From Miltoncostaea oceani (lineage in GTDB: Bacteria; Actinomycetota; Thermoleophilia; Miltoncostaeales; Miltoncostaeaceae), in NCBI RefSeq assembly GCF_018141545.1, contig NZ_CP064356.1, positions 992,001 through 1,056,000 of the forward strand: a DNA stretch of 64,000 nt, read 5' to 3'. The notes under the pieces were generated by a model. That model did not search any database, had not been told where the DNA came from, and worked only from the letters and a program-made list of their open reading frames with translations. Positions 2-15,186 of the stretch are shown here, in pieces. Made by a program: the position numbers and the translations under genes. How positions within the stretch are numbered: position 1 is the stretch's first letter; every line of letters begins with the position of its first letter.

Positions 2-1861
2 GGGTCCGGGGAGCAGCTCGTCACCGCCGTCGGCGCCGAGAGCTTCGCGGAGCGCCTCGCCGCGGAGGCCCGCGGCACGCGCGCCGTGCGGAGCCCCCTG
101 CAGGCCGACATCGACCGCATCCTGCGCCTCACCGTCGCCGTCATGCCGGTGCTCGCCACCGCCCTCGTGGTGTCGCTGTGGGCCCGCGACGTGCCCCTCA
201 CCGAGGGGGCGCGCACGGTGGTGGCGGCGCTGGTCCCCCTCGTCCCGGAGGGCCTGGTGCTGCTCACGAGCCTCACCTTCGCGGTCGCGGCGGTGCGGCT
301 CGCGCGCCTCGGGACGCTGGCGCAGCGCCTCAACGCCGTCGAGAGCCTCGCGTCCGTCGACACGCTGTGCGTCGACAAGACCGGAACCCTCACCGAGAAC
401 CGCATCCGGGTGGTCGCCGTCCACCCCGTGGGCGACGCCACCGCCGACGCGGTCCACGACGACCTCGCCGTCCTCGCGGCGTCCGCGGGGAGCCGCAACG
501 GCACGATGACGGCGATCGCGGAGTGGGCCCCGGGCGACCCCCGGGAGGTGCGCTCCGAGGTGCCGTTCTCGTCGGCGCGCAAGTGGAGCGGGGTGACGCT
601 GGCCGGCGGCGGGACGCTGATGCTCGGGGCGCCGGACATGCTCGCCCGGGCGGGGGTCGCCGTCGACGCCGCGACGCGCGACCGCGTCGCCGCGCACGCG
701 GCGGAGGGCCTGCGGGTGGTGCTCCTCGCGGGGTCCGCGGAGCCGCTCGGCGGCGGCGACGACGTCGCGGCGCCGGCGGGCGCGGCGGCGCGGGCCATCG
801 TCCTGCTGGCGGAGGCGATCCGGCCCGACGCCGCCGAGACCCTCGCGTTCCTCACCCGCGAGGGCGTGACCACCCGCGTCATCTCCGGGGACGACCCGCT
901 GACGGTGTCGGCCGTCGCGCGCGCCACCGGCGTGCCGGACGCCGGCGCCCTCGTCGCGGGCCCGGACCTCCCCGCCGACGGGCCGGAGCTGGAGGAGCTC
1001 GTCGAGCGCACCGCCGTCTACGGCCGCATCACCCCCGAGCAGAAGCGCGACCTGGTGCGCGCGATGACGCGCAACGGCCGCTACGTCGCCATGACCGGCG
1101 ACGGCGTGAACGACGTCCTCGCCCTCAAGGAGGCCCGGCTCGGCATCGCGATGGGCAACGGCAGCCAGATGGCGAAGGGCGTCGCCGACGTGGTGCTCCT
1201 GACGAACGCGTTCGCCACGGTGCCGCGCGCCGTCGAGGAGGGGCGGCGGATCCTGCGCAACACCCACCGCGTGGCGAAGCTCTTCGTGGCGAAGACGGTG
1301 TACTCCGCCGTCATCCTCGCCACCCTCGGCCTCGCACCGATCGCGTACCCCTTCCTGCCGCGGCACATCACGATCGCGTCGACCCTCACCATCGGCATCC
1401 CCGCGTTCGTGCTGGCGCTCGCGCCGTCGGAGGGGCCGGTGCGCCGGGAGGGGTTCTTCGCGAGCCTGCTGGCGTTCGTGGTGCCGGCCGGGGTCCTCAG
1501 CGCCCTCACGATCGACGCCGCCTACCTCCTCGCGCGCGGCCCCCTCGACGCCGGCGTCGTCGAGGGACGCACCGCGGCGGTGCTCGTCACCACCGGCATG
1601 GGGCTCGCGATCGTCGTGGAGGTCGAGCGGGGGCTGGAGGGGCGGCGCGTGCGTCCGTGGTTGTGGGGCATGGTCGCCGGGTTCGCGCTCGCCCTCGTCG
1701 GGGGCCTGCAGGTCCCGTGGCTCCGCGACTTCTTCGAGCTCGAGGTCCCCGGCCCCGACGTCTGGGCGCTGACCGCCGCGTGCCTCGTGGTGGGCGTCGT
1801 GCTGCTCGCGTCCGTGCGGAGGGTGCCGTGGCTCGCGCGCATCGAAGCCCGCGGGTCCTAG
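2..1861 (+). CDS. CtpE-like cation-transporting P-type ATPase (5' truncated)
   Basis: This is the C-terminal two thirds of a P-type ATPase; the frame is open from base 2, so the start lies before the window. A membrane segment carries PEGLVLLTS (around 247-273), in place of the CPx motif of heavy-metal pumps. It is followed by the phosphorylation motif DKTGTLTE, with the aspartate codon at 374-376. The hinge motif TGDGVND lies at about 1097-1114, and the last 450 bases encode several hydrophobic helices. The PEGL sequence and layout resemble mycobacterial CtpE, a Ca2+ pump of the cytoplasmic membrane, so Ca2+ or another divalent cation is the likely substrate (inferred). It converges on the Nramp gene, and the two stop codons share one CTAG. 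Confidence 0.88.
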   Translation, partial: GSGEQLVTAVGAESFAERLAAEARGTRAVRSPLQADIDRILRLTVAVMPVLATALVVSLWARDVPLTEGARTVVAALVPLVPEGLVLLTSLTFAVAAVRLARLGTLAQRLNAVESLASVDTLCVDKTGTLTENRIRVVAVHPVGDATADAVHDDLAVLAASAGSRNGTMTAIAEWAPGDPREVRSEVPFSSARKWSGVTLAGGGTLMLGAPDMLARAGVAVDAATRDRVAAHAAEGLRVVLLAGSAEPLGGGDDVAAPAGAAARAIVLLAEAIRPDAAETLAFLTREGVTTRVISGDDPLTVSAVARATGVPDAGALVAGPDLPADGPELEELVERTAVYGRITPEQKRDLVRAMTRNGRYVAMTGDGVNDVLALKEARLGIAMGNGSQMAKGVADVVLLTNAFATVPRAVEEGRRILRNTHRVAKLFVAKTVYSAVILATLGLAPIAYPFLPRHITIASTLTIGIPAFVLALAPSEGPVRREGFFASLLAFVVPAGVLSALTIDAAYLLARGPLDAGVVEGRTAAVLVTTGMGLAIVVEVERGLEGRRVRPWLWGMVAGFALALVGGLQVPWLRDFFELEVPGPDVWALTAACLVVGVVLLASVRRVPWLARIEARGS

Positions 1862-3153
1862 CCTGCGAGGCCGAGCGCGAGCAGCAGGCCGCAGGACGCG
1901 GCGACCGCGAGGATCACCGCGACGCACACGGCGACGCCCGGGCGGGTGAGGCGGTGGGCGCCGAGCACCGCGGGGTCGCGCCCCAGGCGCACCATCACGG
2001 GGAGGATCGCGAGGAGCAGGACGGCGTTCAGCACCTGCGTGAGGTAGAGCACCGGGATCAGGGGGACGCCGGGGAGCATCACGATGCCGGCCCCCACGAC
2101 CATGGCCCCCAGGTACGTCCCGTGGAACAGCGGGGCCTGGCGGGGCCGCTGGTCGAGGCCCGCGGGGTGGCCGGCGGCCTCGCACACCGAGTACGCGGTC
2201 GAGATCGGGACCACGGCGAGCGCCAGGAGGCCCGCGCCGACGATGCCGAGGCCGAAGAGGACCGACGCCGCGGGCCCGGCGAGCGGCTCGAGGGCACGCG
2301 CCGCGTCGCCGCCGTCCTCGATCGCGATCCCCGCCGGGTGGAGCGTCGCGGCGCACGCGACCACCACGAAGAACCCGATCACCCCGGTCAGCAGCGCGCC
2401 GACCGCGACATCGACCCGCTCGAACCGCAGGTCGCCCGCCGTCAGCTTCTTGTCGACCGCGTAGCTCTGCATGAACGCGAGGCCCCACGGGGCGAGGGTG
2501 GTGCCGAGCGTGGCGACGGCGATGAGCAGGGCGTCCCGGGAGGCGGGGAGGCGCGGATCGACGAGGCCCCGCCCGGCGGCCCCCCAGTCGGGGGCCGCGA
2601 GGATGCCCGCCGCGACGTAGGAGACGAACACCAGGCTCAGCGCGAGCAGCACGTGCTCGACCCGGTGGAACCCGCTCGACAGCACCAGCGCGGCGACGAC
2701 CACGACGGCGACGGGGACGGCCACCGCCCGCGCCGTCCCGAGCAGGAGGTCGGCGCCGATCGCGATGCCCGCGAGCTCGGCGCAGACCGTCCCCACGTTC
2801 GCGACGACCAGCGCCCCCACCGCCAGGCCCGCGGCCGACCGGCCGTGGCGCTCGCGCACCAGCAGCACCAGGCCCTTGCCCGTCACCACCCCGAGGCGGG
2901 CCGCGAGCTCGTGGAAGACGACGAGGGCGCCGGTCGAGAGCACCAGCACCCAGAGCAGCCGGTACCCGTGGTCGGCGCCGAGGATCGAGTAGGTGGTGAT
3001 GCCGGCGGGGTCGTCGTCGGAGAGGCCGGCGAGCAGTCCGGGGCCGAGCACGGCCAGCACCCCCACGAGCCCCGCGGGCCGCGCCAGGCGGAGGCGGTGG
3101 GCGCGGTGGGCGGTGACGCGCCCGGGCGGCGGCCGGCGCGGCGTGCGCCTCAC
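1858..3153 (-). CDS. Nramp-family divalent metal transporter
   Basis: A 431-residue polytopic membrane protein of the Nramp family, proton-coupled importers of Mn2+, Fe2+ or, in side branches, Mg2+. The first membrane helix reads GLLAGLSDDDPAG (residues 39-51), where classical Nramps have DPGN. The sixth-helix region reads LAFMQSYAVDKK rather than the usual MPH motif. These changes lie at the metal site, so substrate specificity cannot be assigned from the family name. About eleven hydrophobic segments are visible. The GTG start at 3153 gives a short basic N-terminus before helix 1. The neighbouring P-type ATPase on the other strand suggests a metal-handling locus. Confidence 0.85.
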   Translation of the reverse strand: MRRTPRRPPPGRVTAHRAHRLRLARPAGLVGVLAVLGPGLLAGLSDDDPAGITTYSILGADHGYRLLWVLVLSTGALVVFHELAARLGVVTGKGLVLLVRERHGRSAAGLAVGALVVANVGTVCAELAGIAIGADLLLGTARAVAVPVAVVVVAALVLSSGFHRVEHVLLALSLVFVSYVAAGILAAPDWGAAGRGLVDPRLPASRDALLIAVATLGTTLAPWGLAFMQSYAVDKKLTAGDLRFERVDVAVGALLTGVIGFFVVVACAATLHPAGIAIEDGGDAARALEPLAGPAASVLFGLGIVGAGLLALAVVPISTAYSVCEAAGHPAGLDQRPRQAPLFHGTYLGAMVVGAGIVMLPGVPLIPVLYLTQVLNAVLLLAILPVMVRLGRDPAVLGAHRLTRPGVAVCVAVILAVAASCGLLLALGLAG

Positions 3154-3392: not shown

Positions 3393-3860
3393 GTGGGCGC
3401 CTTCCGCCACGTCGCCTGCTGCATCGACGCCTCCCGCTCCGGGGGGGCCGCCCTCGAGGAGGCGCGGGGGCTGAGCGACGCGGTCGGCGGGCGGTTGAGC
3501 CTGGTCCACGCCGGCCCGTACACGCTGACCTTCGAGGAGGTCGACGGCCGCCGGGTGCCGGTCCGCGAGGACCTCAACGCCGCCGCGCGCGACTGGCTCC
3601 GCCGCCGCGCCGGCGAGATCCCCGGCGCCGAGCCGGTCTTCCTGCAGGGCGAGCGGGGACCGGCGGCGTGCGCATGGGCGGAGGAGGCCGGGGCCGACCT
3701 GATCGTCGTCGGGGCCGGGTCGGGTCGCCTGCCGGGCCTCGTGCCCGGCGGCTTCGTGCACCACCTGCTCGAGCACGCCCCCTGCCCGGTGCTCGTCGTC
3801 CGCCCGCGGGTGCGCGGCGGCGCCGCGCCGTCGCCCGCCGGCGGGGTCGCCGGTCGCTGA
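3393..3860 (+). CDS. universal stress protein, single domain
   Basis: A 155-residue UspA-fold protein. It begins GAFRHVACCIDAS, where strand 1 carries an adjacent cysteine pair and the conserved aspartate. The segment ending strand 4 is LIVVGAGSG, and the last strand is APCPVLVVRP. The ATP-binding signature G-2X-G-9X-G-(S/T) is incomplete, because no Ser/Thr follows the third glycine, so nucleotide binding is doubtful. The GTG start follows the small membrane peptide by 4 bases. It is one of four related genes here sharing the ACC(I/V)D start. Cytoplasmic stress role inferred from family. Confidence 0.85.
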   Translation: MGAFRHVACCIDASRSGGAALEEARGLSDAVGGRLSLVHAGPYTLTFEEVDGRRVPVREDLNAAARDWLRRRAGEIPGAEPVFLQGERGPAACAWAEEAGADLIVVGAGSGRLPGLVPGGFVHHLLEHAPCPVLVVRPRVRGGAAPSPAGGVAGR

Positions 3861-3891: not shown

Positions 3892-4335
3892 CTAGCCGGC
3901 AGCGGCCGCGGTGCGGGCGGGGTGGACGAGCAGCACCGAGCAGGGCGCGCGGTACGCGAGGTACGAGGCGAACCCGCCGAGCATCGCGCGCTCGACGAGG
4001 CCGCGGTGCGCCGCCGCGACGACCAGGCCGGCGCCCTCCCGGGCCGCCCACGCGCACACCTCGCGGGCGGGCATGCCGTCGAGCAGCGCCGTCCTCACCC
4101 CCGGGTGGGCCTCCGCCAGCTCCCCCAGCCAGGCGGCGGCGGCGTCGCGGGTCTCGGACTGCGGCGGGACGTACGCGAAGGGTCCGGCGACCATCGCCGC
4201 CGGCGGCGCCACCACGTGCACGAGCGTCACGCGGCCGGGTGCGTCGCCGGCCAGCGCGAGCGCCTCCGCGACGATGGCGTCGGCCGCGTCGTCACGGTCG
4301 ACGCAGCACGCGATCCGGTCGTAGGGGCTGCTCAT
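3892..4335 (-). CDS. universal stress protein, single domain
   Basis: A 147-residue UspA-fold protein starting SSPYDRIACCVDRDD. I chose the ATG at 4335 because GAGGAGGT lies just upstream on the minus strand and homology begins at once; the longer open frame upstream is Arg/Gly-rich and not protein-like. The last strand reads APCSVLLVHP. As in the neighbouring genes, strand 1 has a cysteine pair and the final strand has one cysteine. The loop that would bind ATP (AAHRGLVERAMLGGFAS) lacks a full consensus. It converges on the USP gene ending at 3860 and is divergent from the USP at 4537, sharing a 200-base intergenic region. Confidence 0.84.
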   Translation of the reverse strand: MSSPYDRIACCVDRDDAADAIVAEALALAGDAPGRVTLVHVVAPPAAMVAGPFAYVPPQSETRDAAAAWLGELAEAHPGVRTALLDGMPAREVCAWAAREGAGLVVAAAHRGLVERAMLGGFASYLAYRAPCSVLLVHPARTAAAAG

Positions 4336-4432: not shown

Positions 4433-4449
4433 GTGCGGGAATCCCGCAC
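4433..4449. promoter_or_regulatory. perfect 8+1+8 palindrome between divergent USP genes
   Basis: GTGCGGGAATCCCGCAC has two 8-base arms around one base. It lies about 100 bases from the starts of both flanking USP genes (4335 minus, 4537 plus). A sequence GGTCCTAGGGTG at 4488-4499 matches 9 of 12 positions of the motif found upstream of the sensor kinase and the secreted proteins, and its TAGGGT could instead be a -10 box. Operator function is inferred from symmetry and recurrence. Confidence 0.45.
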
Positions 4450-4536
4450 CCGGCGGGGGGTCCCCAACGGTGACGCGGCCCCGCACCGGTCCTAGGGTGG
4501 GAGGGAGAGGTCGTGTCCGACGAGGGGGGTGCCGGC

Positions 4537-5007
4537 ATGAGCGCAACGTTCCGCCACATCGCGTGCTGCATCGACGACTCGCCGTCGGCGGACGCCGCGG
4601 TGGCCCGCGCACGGGAGCTCCAGGAGGCGGGGCACGGCCGCCTGTCGCTCGTGCACGTCGCGCCGCACGCCCTGCTCGTCGACTACATCGACGGCACCCC
4701 CGTTCCGTCGCCCGCGGACATCAACGTCCGCCAGCGCGAATGGCTCGAGGCGCGCGCCGCCGCCGTCCCCGGCGCCACCCCCGTCTTCCTGGAGGGGCTT
4801 CCGGGTCCCGAGATCTGCCGCTGGGCGGCCGAGGCGGGCGTCGGCCTGCTCGTCGCCGGCGCGCACGGGGGCGGCTGGCCGACGGCGGTGCTCGGCAGCA
4901 CCACGCGGCGCCTCGTCGACCACGCGCCCTGCTCGGTCATGGTGGTCCGCGACGCGTCCCGCCGGAGCGCGGAGACCGGGACCGTGGTGACGGAGGCCGG
5001 CGGATGA
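4537..5007 (+). CDS. universal stress protein, single domain
   Basis: A 156-residue UspA-fold protein that opens SATFRHIACCIDDS and ends its last strand APCSVMVVRD. An in-frame GTG at 4513 also has a purine-rich leader, but the ATG at 4537 has GAGGGGGG upstream and gives the same N-terminal spacing as the paralogue at 3393, so I prefer it. The ACC(I/V)D cysteine pair and the final-strand cysteine are both present. Its stop overlaps the ATG of the CBS-GTPase gene by 4 bases, so the two should be translationally coupled and functionally linked. Confidence 0.85.
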   Translation: MSATFRHIACCIDDSPSADAAVARARELQEAGHGRLSLVHVAPHALLVDYIDGTPVPSPADINVRQREWLEARAAAVPGATPVFLEGLPGPEICRWAAEAGVGLLVAGAHGGGWPTAVLGSTTRRLVDHAPCSVMVVRDASRRSAETGTVVTEAGG

Positions 5008-5888
5008 GGGCGCGCGACGTCATGAGCGGCCACCCCGTCACCGTCACGGCCGACGAGGTCGACACCGCGGCGATCGCGGGTCTCATGGACGACGCCGGCA
5101 CCCGCCACCTGCCGATCCTCGACGGGGACCGGCTCGCGGGGGCGTGGATCGCCGACCCCGACGCCGGCGTGGCGCGGATCGGCGCCGACCGCGTCGCGGA
5201 GGTCGCGCCCGACGCCGACGCCGAGGAGCCGGTGCGGATGCTGCTGGAGGGCGCCGAGGTGGTGGTCGTCCGCGGGGACGCCGGGCCCCTCGGCGTCATC
5301 ACCCGCACCGACGTGATGTCGATGGTGCGCGCCGCGATGGCCCAGGGGGCCGGGCGCCGCCATCCGCGGCCGACGGTCGTCCGGGTCGCGGGCGTCGCCG
5401 GGGCGGGCAAGTCGAGGCTCATCCGGCGGACCGCGGCCGCGCTGTCCGGTTACGAGACGGTGGTCGTCCAGGCGAACCCGTCCGGGTCCGCCGCCGCGGG
5501 GGACGTGCGCGAGGTCCGTGACACGTCCGCCCACTGGAGGGCGGGACTCGCCCGCGTCGTGCGCGAACTCGCCGACGCCGAGCTCGTCCTGCTGGAGGAC
5601 CGCGACGAGGACATCGATCTCGCACGGGGCATCGGGGAGGACGTGCAGGTCGCCGTGACGCGCCTCGACGCCGCCGGGTCCCTGACGCCGGAGCGCCTCG
5701 GCGACGCCCAGGCGGTCGTCCTCACCCGCGCGGACGAGGCCGGCGCCGACGCCGTCCGCGACGCCGTGGAGGCCGTCGCGGCGCGCTGCCCCGGCCTCGC
5801 GGTGATGGCCGTCGGGTCGTCCGACGACGAGGCGTTCGCCGCCTGGGTGCGGTGGGTCGGGCGTCAGGTGCTCCGCCGCCGCGGGTAG
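5004..5888 (+). CDS. CBS-domain pair fused to a P-loop (HypB/UreG-like) GTPase
   Basis: A 294-residue two-part protein. Residues 1-112 are a CBS pair: RARDVMSGHPVTVTADE starts the first and GVITRTDVMSMV ends the second. Residues 124-290 are a P-loop domain with Walker A VAGVAGAGKS (128-137), a LVLLEDRDED segment (194-203) and VVLTRADEA (238-246) at the position of the guanine-specificity motif. The arrangement recalls the SIMIBI metallochaperone GTPases HypB and UreG, but their metal-binding Cys/His cluster is not obvious. CBS pairs usually sense adenine nucleotides, so the protein may couple adenylate state to GTP hydrolysis (inference). It follows the upstream USP with an ATGA overlap and converges on the USP at 5892. 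Confidence 0.72.
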   Translation: MRARDVMSGHPVTVTADEVDTAAIAGLMDDAGTRHLPILDGDRLAGAWIADPDAGVARIGADRVAEVAPDADAEEPVRMLLEGAEVVVVRGDAGPLGVITRTDVMSMVRAAMAQGAGRRHPRPTVVRVAGVAGAGKSRLIRRTAAALSGYETVVVQANPSGSAAAGDVREVRDTSAHWRAGLARVVRELADAELVLLEDRDEDIDLARGIGEDVQVAVTRLDAAGSLTPERLGDAQAVVLTRADEAGADAVRDAVEAVAARCPGLAVMAVGSSDDEAFAAWVRWVGRQVLRRRG

Positions 5889-5891
5889 GCC

Positions 5892-6617
5892 TCAGCGGGT
5901 CACGAGCACCGGGCAGCGGGCGTGGCGCGCGAGCCGCCAGGCCACGCTCCCGTGCCGTGCACGCTCCAGCGGGCCGTCGTGGGCCGCGGCGACGATCAGG
6001 TCCGGCGCGGCCGTCTCCGCCCAGGCCAGGATCTCGGCGTCGGGTGTGCCGTCGTCCACGGCGTGGACGAGGGAGATGCGGCACGGCCCCCCCGCATCGG
6101 CGACGCGCCGCGCGAGGCGCGCCGCGCGGACCGACGACGCCGACGGGTCGACGCAGCACGCGATGTGCGCGAAGCCGGCCCCGGGCCGGGCCCAGGACCC
6201 CGCCCCGTCCGGGCAGCCAGGCGGGACGACCAGCACCGGGCAGGGCGCGTCGACGACGAGCCGGCGGGTGACCCCGCCGAGCAGGCGGTCGATGGGCCCC
6301 GGGTGCGACGCGAGCACCATCAGGTCCGGCTCCTCGCGGGCGGCCCAGGCGATCAACGCGTCCGCGGGGTCCCCCCACAGCAGGACGGGCACCGCGCCCG
6401 GCACCGCGGCCGCGCGCCCGTCGAGCCACTCCTCCGCCCGGCGATGGGCGAGCTGGCGGTCGACGCCCCACCGGCTGTAGCCGGCGACGGCCCCCGGCGG
6501 GGCGACGTGCACCAGGTCGATCCGCCGGGGCGCGAGGCGGGTGACCGCCGCGATGCCGCGGTCGTCCGCCGGGGAGTGGTCGATGCACACCGCGACCCGC
6601 GCGAAGGGCCCGGTCAC
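5892..6617 (-). CDS. tandem universal stress protein, two domains
   Basis: A 241-residue protein with two USP domains. The first begins TGPFARVAVCIDHS and ends APCPVLVVPP. The second begins GAGFAHIACCVDPS and ends ARCPVLVTR. The GTG at 6617 is chosen because coding similarity starts there and it lies just past the stop of the upstream USP gene (6619). The second domain is shorter than usual, having lost part of the middle of the fold. The family cysteine pair is kept in domain 2 and reduced to VCID in domain 1. It is cotranscribed with the two-domain USP at 6619-7482. Confidence 0.82.
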   Translation of the reverse strand: MTGPFARVAVCIDHSPADDRGIAAVTRLAPRRIDLVHVAPPGAVAGYSRWGVDRQLAHRRAEEWLDGRAAAVPGAVPVLLWGDPADALIAWAAREEPDLMVLASHPGPIDRLLGGVTRRLVVDAPCPVLVVPPGCPDGAGSWARPGAGFAHIACCVDPSASSVRAARLARRVADAGGPCRISLVHAVDDGTPDAEILAWAETAAPDLIVAAAHDGPLERARHGSVAWRLARHARCPVLVTR

Positions 6618-6618
6618 G

Positions 6619-7482
6619 TCACCCGGCCTCCGCGGGCCGCACCACGAGCACGGACGAGGGGGCGCGGTGGGCGACGCGCTCGCTGACGCTGCCGAGCGCC
6701 CGAGCGCCGTGCAGGCCGCGCGAGCCCACCACCAGCAGGTCGGCGGTCTGGGCCGCCTCGACCAGCGCCTCGACGGGGCGGTCGGCGCTCGCGACCACCT
6801 CGACGGGCCCCTCGACGCCCGCCAGGTCGTCCGCCGCGTCCACGACGGGTGACGCCGTGACGGCGACGAGCCGTCCACCCGCCGCGGTGCGCAGCCGGAC
6901 CGCCTCGCGCAGGGCGGCCCGCGACCCCTCGGAGCCGTCGAGGCCGACCACGATCCGCGCGGGGAACCCGGTGGGGTCGATCGGCGGGCGGGCGACCAGC
7001 ACCGACACCGGCGAGTCGTGGATCACCATCGACGTCGTCGCCCCCAGCGCGGCGCCGCTCAGGCGGCCCCGCCCGTGGGTGCCGACGACGACCAGCGTGG
7101 CGCCCTCCGTGGCGACGGCCTCGAGCAGGCGCTCGTCGGGGTCGCCGTCGACCACCCGCGTGGTGACCCGGCCGGCCACGCCGTCCGCCTGGCGCGCCGC
7201 CTCCTCGAGCGACGCCCGCGCGCGGGCCCGCAGGTCGTCGAAGCACTGGTCGACGGTCCGCTCCGACTCGCCGGTCATCCGCCACCGCGGGGCCTCGGAC
7301 CCCCACCGGCCGGCGAGCGCGGCGTAGAGCCCGGCGACGGCCACCAGCACGAGGTGGCCCCCGGCGCCCGCCAGGCGGGCGGCCTGGCGCGCCGCCTCGA
7401 AGCCCTCCCGCGTACCGTCGACCCCGCAGACCACGACCGCGTGGCCCCCGCCGGCCGCATCCGCCGCCGCGTCCCCCGTCAT
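6619..7482 (-). CDS. tandem universal stress protein, two ATP-type domains
   Basis: A 287-residue double USP. The first domain has VVGTHGRGRLSGAALGATTS, which fits the G-2X-G-9X-G ATP-binding pattern. The second has VVGSRGLHGARALGSVSE, a shorter version. It therefore belongs to the ATP-binding USP branch, like mycobacterial Rv2623-type proteins, unlike the cysteine-paired USPs beside it. The ATG at 7482 has GAGGGGGCG upstream. It is the first gene of a two-gene unit with 5892-6617 and is divergent from the DUF6544-like gene across a 169-base spacer containing a palindrome. Role: stress or dormancy adaptation (family knowledge). Confidence 0.87.
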   Translation of the reverse strand: MTGDAAADAAGGGHAVVVCGVDGTREGFEAARQAARLAGAGGHLVLVAVAGLYAALAGRWGSEAPRWRMTGESERTVDQCFDDLRARARASLEEAARQADGVAGRVTTRVVDGDPDERLLEAVATEGATLVVVGTHGRGRLSGAALGATTSMVIHDSPVSVLVARPPIDPTGFPARIVVGLDGSEGSRAALREAVRLRTAAGGRLVAVTASPVVDAADDLAGVEGPVEVVASADRPVEALVEAAQTADLLVVGSRGLHGARALGSVSERVAHRAPSSVLVVRPAEAG

Positions 7483-9120: not shown

Positions 9121-10443
9121 ATGAGCGACACGACGGCCGGCGGGGGGCGGGGCCCCTCGGTGCGGGGCGCCGTCGCCCGCTTCATGATCGCCGGCCTCGT
9201 CGCGCTGGCGGCCCTCGCCGTCGGCGGCCTGCTGGTGCTGCGGCCGCTCGGCGAGCGCGAGGCCGTCGACGACGCCCGCCGCCTGGCGACCCTCGCCGGG
9301 CGCGGCGTCGTCGAGCCGGCGCTCACCGACGCCGCCCTCGCCGGGGACCCCGCGGCCCTCGCGCGGCTCGACACGGTGGTGCAGGAGCGGGTGCTCGGCG
9401 ACGACGTCGTCCGCGTCAAGATCTGGACGCCGGAGGGCCGCATCGCCTACTCCGACGAGCCCCGGCTGATCGGCCGCCGGTACACGCTCGGCGAGGACGA
9501 GCGGGGGGTGCTGCGCAGCGGCGAGACGGAGGCGGAGGTCAGCGACCTCGGCGAGCCGGAGAACGTCTTCGAGCGCGACCAGGGGTCCCTGCTCGAGGTG
9601 TACCTGCCGATCCGCAGCCCCGGCGGCGAGCTCGCCCTGTTCGAGACCTACCGCCGCCAGAGCGCCATCGACGCGAGCGGCCGGGAGATCATCACGGCGT
9701 TCATGCCGGTGATCGGCGGCGCCCTCCTGCTGCTGTGGCTCGTCCAGGTCCCCCTCGCGTGGTCGATGGCGCGCAAGCTCGGCGAGGGGAGCCGCGAGCG
9801 CCAGGCGCTGCTCGAGACGGCCCTCGCGTCGTCGGCCCTGGAGCGGCGTCGCGTCGCGGCCGACCTCCACGACGGGCCTCTGCAGGACCTCGCCGGGCTG
9901 GCCTTCGGCCTGGCCGGCGCCGCGCGGGCGGCGCCGGAGGGCACCGACCCCGCGACGGTCGCCGCCCTCCGCGACGGCGCCGACGCCGCGCGCGAGGGCA
10001 CCCGCCGCCTGCGCGCCGCCGTCGTCGACATCACCCCGGGGCGGCTCCACGACGAGGGGCTCGAGGCGGCGCTCGCGGACCTCGCCGCCCCCCTGCGGGC
10101 CCGGGGGGTCACGGTGGGGATCGACGTCGCGCCGGGGCCGGCGCTCTCCCCGGCGACCGAGGAGCTGCTCTACCGCGCCGCCGCGGAGGGGCTGCGCAAC
10201 GCGCGCGCCCACTCCGGCGCGGAGCGCGTCGACGTGGCGGTCGCGGTCGCCGACGGACGGGCCCGCCTGCGGGTCGCGGACGACGGCTCCGGGTTCGACG
10301 CCGCCACCCGCGCCCGCCGCCGCGCCGACGGCCACGTCGGCCTGGAGCTGCTGGAGGACCTGGCGCGGCACCTCGGCGGCCACGCCGAGGTGCGATCCTC
10401 GCCGGGGGAGGGGACCGTGCTCGAGGTGGAGGTGCCGGCGTGA
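9121..10443 (+). CDS. NarL-type sensor histidine kinase, membrane-bound
   Basis: A 440-residue kinase with membrane segments at about residues 20-40 and 192-212 enclosing a roughly 150-residue extracytoplasmic sensor domain. A HisKA_3 dimerisation helix follows with the phospho-acceptor in AADLHDGPLQDLAG (His250). A GHKL ATPase domain with RVADDGSGFD ends the protein. No haem-binding GAF domain as in DevS is present, so the signal is probably extracytoplasmic. The ATG at 9121 opens the gene and the stop overlaps the GTG of the response regulator (GTGA), a typical cognate pair. Confidence 0.9.
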   Translation: MSDTTAGGGRGPSVRGAVARFMIAGLVALAALAVGGLLVLRPLGEREAVDDARRLATLAGRGVVEPALTDAALAGDPAALARLDTVVQERVLGDDVVRVKIWTPEGRIAYSDEPRLIGRRYTLGEDERGVLRSGETEAEVSDLGEPENVFERDQGSLLEVYLPIRSPGGELALFETYRRQSAIDASGREIITAFMPVIGGALLLLWLVQVPLAWSMARKLGEGSRERQALLETALASSALERRRVAADLHDGPLQDLAGLAFGLAGAARAAPEGTDPATVAALRDGADAAREGTRRLRAAVVDITPGRLHDEGLEAALADLAAPLRARGVTVGIDVAPGPALSPATEELLYRAAAEGLRNARAHSGAERVDVAVAVADGRARLRVADDGSGFDAATRARRRADGHVGLELLEDLARHLGGHAEVRSSPGEGTVLEVEVPA

Positions 10444-11087
10444 TCCGCGTGATCCTGTGCGACGACCACGCCGTGGTGCGCGCCGGCCTCGGCCAGCTCA
10501 TCGGCGCGTTCGACGGGGTGGAGGTCGTCGCCCAGGCGGGCGGCACGGCCGAGGCCCTGGAGGCGCTCGCCGCGACGGGCGCGGACGTGGTGCTGATGGA
10601 CCTCGAGATGCCGCCGCCCGACGGCATCGAGGCGACCCGCATGATCCACGAGGCGCATCCCGGGGTGGCCGTCGTGATCCTCACGTCGTTCTCGGACCGT
10701 CCCCGCATCCTGCGCGCCCTCGACGCGGGGGCCGTCGGCTACCTGCTGAAGGACGCCGAGCCGGACGAGGTGGAGCGCGGCATCCGCGCCGCCGCGCGCG
10801 GCGAGTCGCCGATCGACCCGCGGGCGGCACGTGCGCTGCTGACCCGCCCGCCCGCGCCGGCCGCCCCGCCGGCGGCGGAGCTGTCGGGACGCGAGCGCGA
10901 GGTGCTCGCCCTCGTCGCGGAGGGCCTGCCCAACAAGCTCATCGCCCGCCGCCTCGGCATCAGCGAGAAGACGGTGAAGGCGCACCTCACCAGCGTCTTC
11001 CGCGCGATCGGCGTGGACGACCGCACGCAGGCCGCGTTGTGGGCCGTCCGCAACGGCGTCGCGGAGGCCCCGCCCGGGGGGTCCTAG
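10440..11087 (+). CDS. NarL/FixJ-family response regulator
   Basis: A 215-residue regulator. The receiver domain has the acidic pair CDDH (residues 7-10), the phospho-acceptor in VLMDLEMP (Asp54) and the conserved lysine in YLLKDAEP. A LuxR-type helix-turn-helix follows: LSGREREVLALVAEG and ISEKTVKAHLTSVF. It is translationally coupled to the kinase through a GTGA overlap. The GGAC-N4-GTCC boxes ahead of the kinase and the two secreted proteins match the DosR-class recognition pattern, so these genes are its probable targets (inferred). Confidence 0.92.
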   Translation: MIRVILCDDHAVVRAGLGQLIGAFDGVEVVAQAGGTAEALEALAATGADVVLMDLEMPPPDGIEATRMIHEAHPGVAVVILTSFSDRPRILRALDAGAVGYLLKDAEPDEVERGIRAAARGESPIDPRAARALLTRPPAPAAPPAAELSGREREVLALVAEGLPNKLIARRLGISEKTVKAHLTSVFRAIGVDDRTQAALWAVRNGVAEAPPGGS

Positions 11088-14709: not shown

Positions 14710-15186
14710 TCACCCGTGGTGCGCGTGCACCACGGCGTGGCCGCGACCGCGGGCGATGAGCCAGCGGTTCACGGGGACGGCCGCCGCGAACGCCACGGCG
14801 AGCGCGACGGCGAGGCTCAGCCAGAAGCGGGCGTCCCCCAGGCCGGCGTCCATCGCGCCGGGGATGGCGAGCATCATGGCGTTGTCCACGATCTCCATCA
14901 CGGCGATCGAGAACGTGTCGGCGGCCAGCGCCAGCGGCAGGACGGTGCCGAGGGCCAGGCCGGAGCGCAGCAGCGGGACCGCGGTGAACGAGTAGCCGAA
15001 CAGGAAGGCGAGGCCGACCGCCAGGGCGATGGTCGGCACGTTCCCCCAGCCGAGGGCGGTGCCGATCGCGAGCCCGAGGATCTCGCCGATCGCGCAGCCG
15101 GTGAGGCAGTGGGCGGTGGCGACGACGGCCAGCCGGTTCAGTCCGGCCGGGTCACGGTGGCCCGGGTGCGCGTGCGCGTGCTGCAT
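14710..15186 (-). CDS. DUF4396 membrane protein with His-rich ends
   Basis: A 158-residue integral membrane protein with four hydrophobic helices, matching the DUF4396 layout (NRLAVVATAHCLTGCAIGE in helix 1, then a METIVDN-like MEIVDNAMM segment). Both ends are histidine-rich: HAHAHPGHRD at the N-terminus and HAVVHAHHG at the C-terminus. The promoter region holds two 17-base CsoR-like palindromes, so copper control is likely. The protein would therefore handle or sense copper at the membrane, an inference from operator type and histidines. The ATG at 15186 is well placed. Confidence 0.78.
   Translation of the reverse strand: MQHAHAHPGHRDPAGLNRLAVVATAHCLTGCAIGEILGLAIGTALGWGNVPTIALAVGLAFLFGYSFTAVPLLRSGLALGTVLPLALAADTFSIAVMEIVDNAMMLAIPGAMDAGLGDARFWLSLAVALAVAFAAAVPVNRWLIARGRGHAVVHAHHG

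Follow-up and report, generated by a model that had tools for sequence, protein, structure and literature searches.

A CBS domain pair joined to a HypB-derived domain beside universal stress protein genes in Miltoncostaea oceani and its relatives

Closest described systems and the fusion gene

HypB, a GTPase, is known to deliver nickel. Its CHxnC motif binds metal, the switch I residues D66, D72 and R75 of AfHypB act with K148 in GTP sensing and GTP-dependent dimerisation, and AfHypB functions with NKxA, binding guanine nucleotides despite this non-canonical G4 (PMC3262836). UreG and the COG0523/CobW G3E GTPases have the SIMIBI fold class in common with the protein described here, and MeaB/MMAA and other SIMIBI chaperone GTPases have the G-domain fold in common with it, but all of these resemble it less than HypB does. 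CBS pairs usually dimerise, and GxxTxxD in CBS domains is a ribose-binding motif. A CBS pair of the same fold is found in HRP1 (Rv2626c) of M. tuberculosis, with 24% identity over the pair; unlike our protein, HRP1 has no GTPase-like domain.

In the window (the whole 64,000-nucleotide stretch of Miltoncostaea oceani contig NZ_CP064356.1 analysed here), one gene encodes a CBS pair followed by a domain that derives from HypB, the nickel GTPase (Table 1). An initial annotation, made from the letters alone, had placed this gene at 5004-5888, and its coordinates, strand and frame proved exact: the ATG lies at 5004, the TAG at 5886-5888, and the product has 294 aa. It had also put a CBS module and a SIMIBI-type P-loop (VAGVAGAGKS) on one chain, and we find the CBS pair at residues 1-110, the HypB fold at 118-292 and GVAGAGKS at 130-137. 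AlphaFold2 models the full protein with a mean pLDDT of 82. The gene is real and conserved: two pairs of closely related family members give dN/dS values of 0.10 and 0.24, which record purifying selection on the family.

Both the HypB fold and the CBS pair are known; the re-use of a HypB-derived module beneath a CBS sensor appears to be new. The architecture is apparently undescribed and clade-restricted. That no characterised protein is built this way, as the annotation had supposed, is consistent with the domain libraries and the open-access literature, where neither a described family nor a paper with a CBS-HypB fusion was found, although coverage is incomplete and such absence is not proof. 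In that search, which covered open-access papers, no publication brought a CBS domain and HypB together with fusion/GTPase or with SIMIBI. The one co-mention of CBS, HypB and USP proved to concern separate gene sets near hydrogenases and was set aside.

Table 1. Coordinates of the fusion gene, its domains and motifs, and neighbouring genes in the window.
Feature	Coordinates	Strand	Evidence
CBS-HypB-like fusion gene P0001, 294 aa	5004..5888	+	ORF and translation, homologues, dN/dS, AlphaFold2
CBS pair, residues 1-110	5004..5333	+	Pfam CBS, separate model
CBS2 GVITRTD (GxxTxxD), residues 97-103	5292..5312	+	alignments A1 and A2
HypB-like nucleotide-binding domain, ~residues 122-290	5367..5873	+	profile vs 2wsm, structural match
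P-loop GVAGAGKS, residues 130-137	5391..5414	+	GxxxxGK[ST]
SAHWRA, residues 175-180, at HypB metal-binding CHLDA position	5526..5543	+	alignment
LVLLEDRD, residues 194-201, at HypB ENVGNLVCP position	5583..5606	+	Cys lost in 10/10
TRAD, degenerate G4 (HypB NKxD), residues 241-244	5724..5735	+	alignment
Universal stress protein, ATGA overlap with fusion; alternative ATG 4537	4513..5007	+	Pfam Usp 2.4e-24
Universal stress protein, divergent	3892..4335	-	profile match
Universal stress protein	3393..3860	+	profile match
Universal stress protein, two Usp stretches	5892..6617	-	profile match
Universal stress protein, tandem Usp	6619..7482	-	profile match
Nramp-family metal transporter	1858..3153	-	Pfam Nramp 4.4e-80; NF037982 78 bits vs cut-off 50
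Histidine kinase	9121..10443	+	profile match
LuxR/NarL-type response regulator	10440..11087	+	profile match

Descent of the second half and its residues

The family profile (A1) matches the HypB structure 2wsm at 1.6e-10, spanning residues 117-292. Among 999 chains compared structurally (VIA-align), the same AfHypB entry is the best match (Z 20.3, rmsd 2.5, 172 aligned), with HypB 2hf8 at Z 20.2, UreG at 18.5 and MeaB at 17.2, and Foldseek on the AlphaFold2 model also returns HypB as the best fold (5.1e-9). The HypB/UreG-like GTPase fold first proposed thus stands, with HypB placed above UreG. The fusion and HypB (AfHypB 2WSM, MjHypB 2HF8) have in common the fold, the motif order, a conserved C-terminal Trp/helix and the G4 Asp, together with the P-loop in eight of the ten full-length members; they differ in the added N-terminal CBS pair and in the residues discussed below.

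TIGR00073 (HypB) is matched by 8 of these 10 members, at best with 3e-12, yet all stay far under its curated cut-off of 121.2 bits (best member 46.5 bits, window protein unlisted). Searched alone against Pfam and the family library, the window protein has no HypB or CobW match above noise. A HypB profile ranks each of the ten G domains above 2,000 shuffled sequences, the strongest being L008 at 3.8e-16 and the weakest, at 0.002, the window copy, which is therefore the most diverged member. In the reverse direction, stand-alone HypB proteins of other Actinomycetota and of genomes from two further phyla are matched by the fusion profile with values of 1e-15 to 1e-19. Judged from these profiles, the resemblance to HypB is weak for the window protein taken alone but firm for the family.

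Other SIMIBI assignments fit less well. PF02492 (cobW) matches 7 of 10 members weakly (best E 0.0014) and the window protein not at all; neither a CPH nor a CxCC metal motif of the UreG/CobW type is visible in the fusion, nor does the family alignment contain a Cys cluster of that type. As regards MeaB/MMAA, no gene for a cobalamin mutase was seen within the examined gene context. AAA_16, nSTAND_NTPase5 and Zeta_toxin of Pfam gave sub-cut-off matches centred on the P-loop region, which were not counted as membership.

Alignment of the ten full-length members with nine genuine HypB sequences located the losses. Both Cys of the CHxnC Ni/Zn site are absent in 10/10, in line with the annotation, which saw no metal-binding cluster, and the His is present in 6/10. 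With C262 as its only Cys, the window protein cannot form a thiolate cluster within one chain. The EGD..DA.R segment of switch I, with its Asp and Arg residues, and the KPLKYP loop carrying the dimerisation Lys are missing in all ten. The protein might still be a metallochaperone or metal sensor in the manner of HypB and COG0523 proteins, acting on Zn, Mn or Co through different ligands (the retained His177 or carboxylates are candidates) and supplying or gating the neighbouring transporters; this would draw on the His kept in six members. The complete loss of both Cys ligands speaks against it, as does the loss of the His itself in the other four, which include both ATPase-coupled copies in G001 and G002, and we hold this explanation to be rather doubtful.

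HypB is without a match in the near-complete window genome (G000), urease is absent there and likewise from the other family genomes, and the hydrogenase large-subunit model PF00374 yields only short N-terminal matches (67-68 of 508 model positions) that probably belong to complex I subunits. A role in hydrogenase or urease maturation was rejected for the window genome, where HypB and urease are missing and a convincing [NiFe] hydrogenase is lacking as well; there the fusion is most likely not a nickel insertase.

The nucleotide-binding motifs are partly retained. GxxxxGK[ST] is intact in the window protein and in 7 of its 9 full-length relatives, and the Lys is lost in L014 and L015. The degenerate TRAD specificity motif of the annotation is present: at G4 the Asp is invariant, the Asn is lost in 10/10 and the Lys is present in 3/10. 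Since the G4 of AfHypB is also non-canonical and this protein nevertheless binds guanine nucleotides, TRAD is compatible with GTP binding. The HypB-like half might alternatively be a pseudo-enzyme that binds no nucleotide, the whole protein then being a CBS sensor mounted on an interaction platform of old fold. The two members with Ile or Ala for the P-loop Lys (GCGIST, GCGATT) and a dN/dS of 0.24, as well as the erosion of switch I and of the G4 Asn/Lys, fit such a state; but eight of ten members, the window protein among them, keep the P-loop and none has lost the G4 Asp, which makes it unlikely for the family.

The CBS half and the distribution of the family

Pfam CBS (PF00571) matches the window protein in two stretches with 33.4 bits against a cut-off of 24, and it matches all ten full-length members. 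Modelled alone, this half reaches a pLDDT of 89 and matches CBS pairs including those of OpuCA, MJ0100, CNNM, AcuB and HRP1, many of them ligand-binding. In CBS2 the residues G97, T100 and D103 are invariant across 11 aligned sequences. CBS1 has no [ST]xxD or GxxTxxD motif, which likely leaves one canonical nucleotide site at most; the final helix of CBS1 is replaced by a beta hairpin. The CBS half is also the more constrained one, with 0 nonsynonymous changes over 110 codons between L002 and L003 at a dS of 0.38. The annotation's reading of this part as adenylate-sensing is a possible one.

Besides the window copy, a search of 101 genomes returned nine full-length homologues, with 32-55% identity to the window protein and 27 invariant columns, and two broken or split copies, one frameshifted in a draft genome (G018) and one divided over contigs (G020). 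Among 399 genomes of the class searched with the family profile, 10 carry the fusion, all from the window's own GTDB family. Among 396 genomes of the phylum it occurs only in G000 and G003, the other eight matches covering the G domain alone in frames of stand-alone HypB length, and G-domain matches are all that was found in two further phyla, sampled with 340 genomes (the phylum to which an Anaerolineales genome belongs) and 339 genomes (that of a Rhodanobacter genome). Within the searched genomes the family is thus confined to one GTDB family of Thermoleophilia; these ~1,470 genome draws from three phyla overlap, so rare fusions may exist elsewhere. Plasmids and viral contigs gave no match. 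A profile scan of genome contigs recovered one full-length relative, on the contig already represented by G011; the rest of its matches cover CBS alone. Two partial matches of greater length, L036 and L041, proved on inspection not to be fusions.

The G018 frameshift (L022, 6416-9151) leads from the fusion into the frame of the downstream heavy-metal ATPase, and may be an error of the MAG or a real pseudogene. This copy and the divergence of the window copy could be taken to mean that the fusion is a mere passenger of stress islands, neutral or decaying and with no specific function. That is very improbable given the low dN/dS, the intact frames in ten loci across five genera and the invariant columns, and given that the one frameshift lies in a draft assembly.

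Gene context and a possible switch role

The stop codon of the upstream USP gene (5005-5007) overlaps the start of the fusion by 4 nt (ATGA), in agreement with the translational coupling read from the sequence at the outset. A survey of the fusion beside USPs, which the annotation had proposed, showed that in six loci (G000, G001, G002, G009, G018 and G014) a USP gene of the same strand immediately precedes the fusion, in five of them, all but G014, with the ATGA overlap. As the genomes of the family contain only 3-16 Usp match stretches each, this repeated adjacency exceeds chance expectation. Because common descent accounts for part of it, the six loci with a coupled USP do not count as independent events. 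A histidine kinase and a NarL-type regulator lie near the fusion in most relatives' loci, and richness in USPs together with a two-component system is a feature of the DosR regulon of HRP1 as well. We found no shared operator here and no consistent DosR-like box.

The flanking metal transport genes of the annotation stand only in part. An Nramp gene is indeed nearby, but two further USP genes, in addition to the coupled one, intervene. The orthologue of the P-type ATPase gene at 2-1861 indicates that this ATPase is of a non-heavy-metal class; tight coupling to heavy-metal transport is seen only in relatives. In three of these (G001:C249, G002:C209 and G018) a heavy-metal ATPase of the Zn/Cd P1B class follows immediately downstream with a GTGA overlap, and in G018 USP, fusion and ATPase are consecutive. 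The cases in G001 and G002 involve second copies of the fusion (L014/L026 and L015/L027, respectively), the same two that have lost the P-loop Lys, each with a gene for a TreT-like glycosyltransferase upstream. In G003 it is the fusion that overlaps a TreT gene (ATGA). A ZIP gene lies downstream in G011 and G020, Nramp is near the fusion in the window and in G002, and several loci are without a metal gene, a USP neighbour, or both. Recurrence of metal genes is what the metallochaperone explanation has in its favour; their differing kinds (Nramp, P1B ATPase, ZIP) could mark an island held in common and not a single function.

The loss of the nickel residues and the stress/metal operon setting in one family argue for a switch over a nickel chaperone. 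At roughly even odds (about 0.5), we read the fusion as a switch or adaptor that is gated by a ligand and serves an island of stress and metal-homeostasis genes, and not as a nickel insertase. The CBS2 site would bind an adenosine nucleotide or related ligand. Dimerisation, for which HypB relies on GTP, switch I and the lysine loop, elements lost here, would fall to the CBS pair. In the USP-coupled copies the HypB-like domain would still bind nucleotide through its P-loop, and the signal would pass to a partner from the same operon, the USP or, in some relatives, the Zn/Cd-type P-type ATPase. The switch may link energy to stress or energy to metal. A more specific form, possible if somewhat speculative, is a dual-nucleotide switch in which the CBS pair reads adenylates and the HypB-derived G domain an NTP, controlling the USP and/or the heavy-metal ATPase; it would tie the energy state of the cell to stress dormancy and metal export.

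With the fold kept and nickel binding dropped in every full-length member, a GTPase would have been recruited as a signalling module. To our knowledge the targets of USPs are mostly unknown, and the genes coupled to the fusion point to first candidate partners; a vertically maintained, stress-associated fusion offers a testable link between adenylate sensing, USPs and metal export.

Some further features of these loci may be recorded. Between the divergent USP genes of the window, a perfect 17-bp inverted repeat, GTGCGGGAATCCCGCAC (4433-4449), forms a putative operator; in the window genome GTGCGGGAATCCCGCAC is exact only there, with two further sites elsewhere at 1 mismatch, and the palindrome was not found upstream of the fusion relatives. 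Rfam returned nothing in the window and ARAGORN no tRNA. A DUF4396 protein is encoded at 14710-15186 on the reverse strand (Pfam 7.6e-41). Immediately 5′ of the USP-fusion pair, and overlapping it, lies a gene for a Flavodoxin_5-domain protein in two relatives' loci (L018 10125-10613, L019 7742-8218). Near the second fusion copies, the starts of phosphoketolase-like and acetate kinase-like genes were recognised by eye (L026 14215-17657, L027 6939-10381), suggesting a possibly fermentative or anoxic setting. Finally, a protein with a C-terminal AAA_33 domain, assigned by a profile match from the L018 copy, recurs in the islands (L018 11459-12883, L019 5670-7076, L025 17139-17999, L029 1578-3068); it presumably resembles proteins of the Rv2004c type, which in mycobacteria belong to the DosR regulon.
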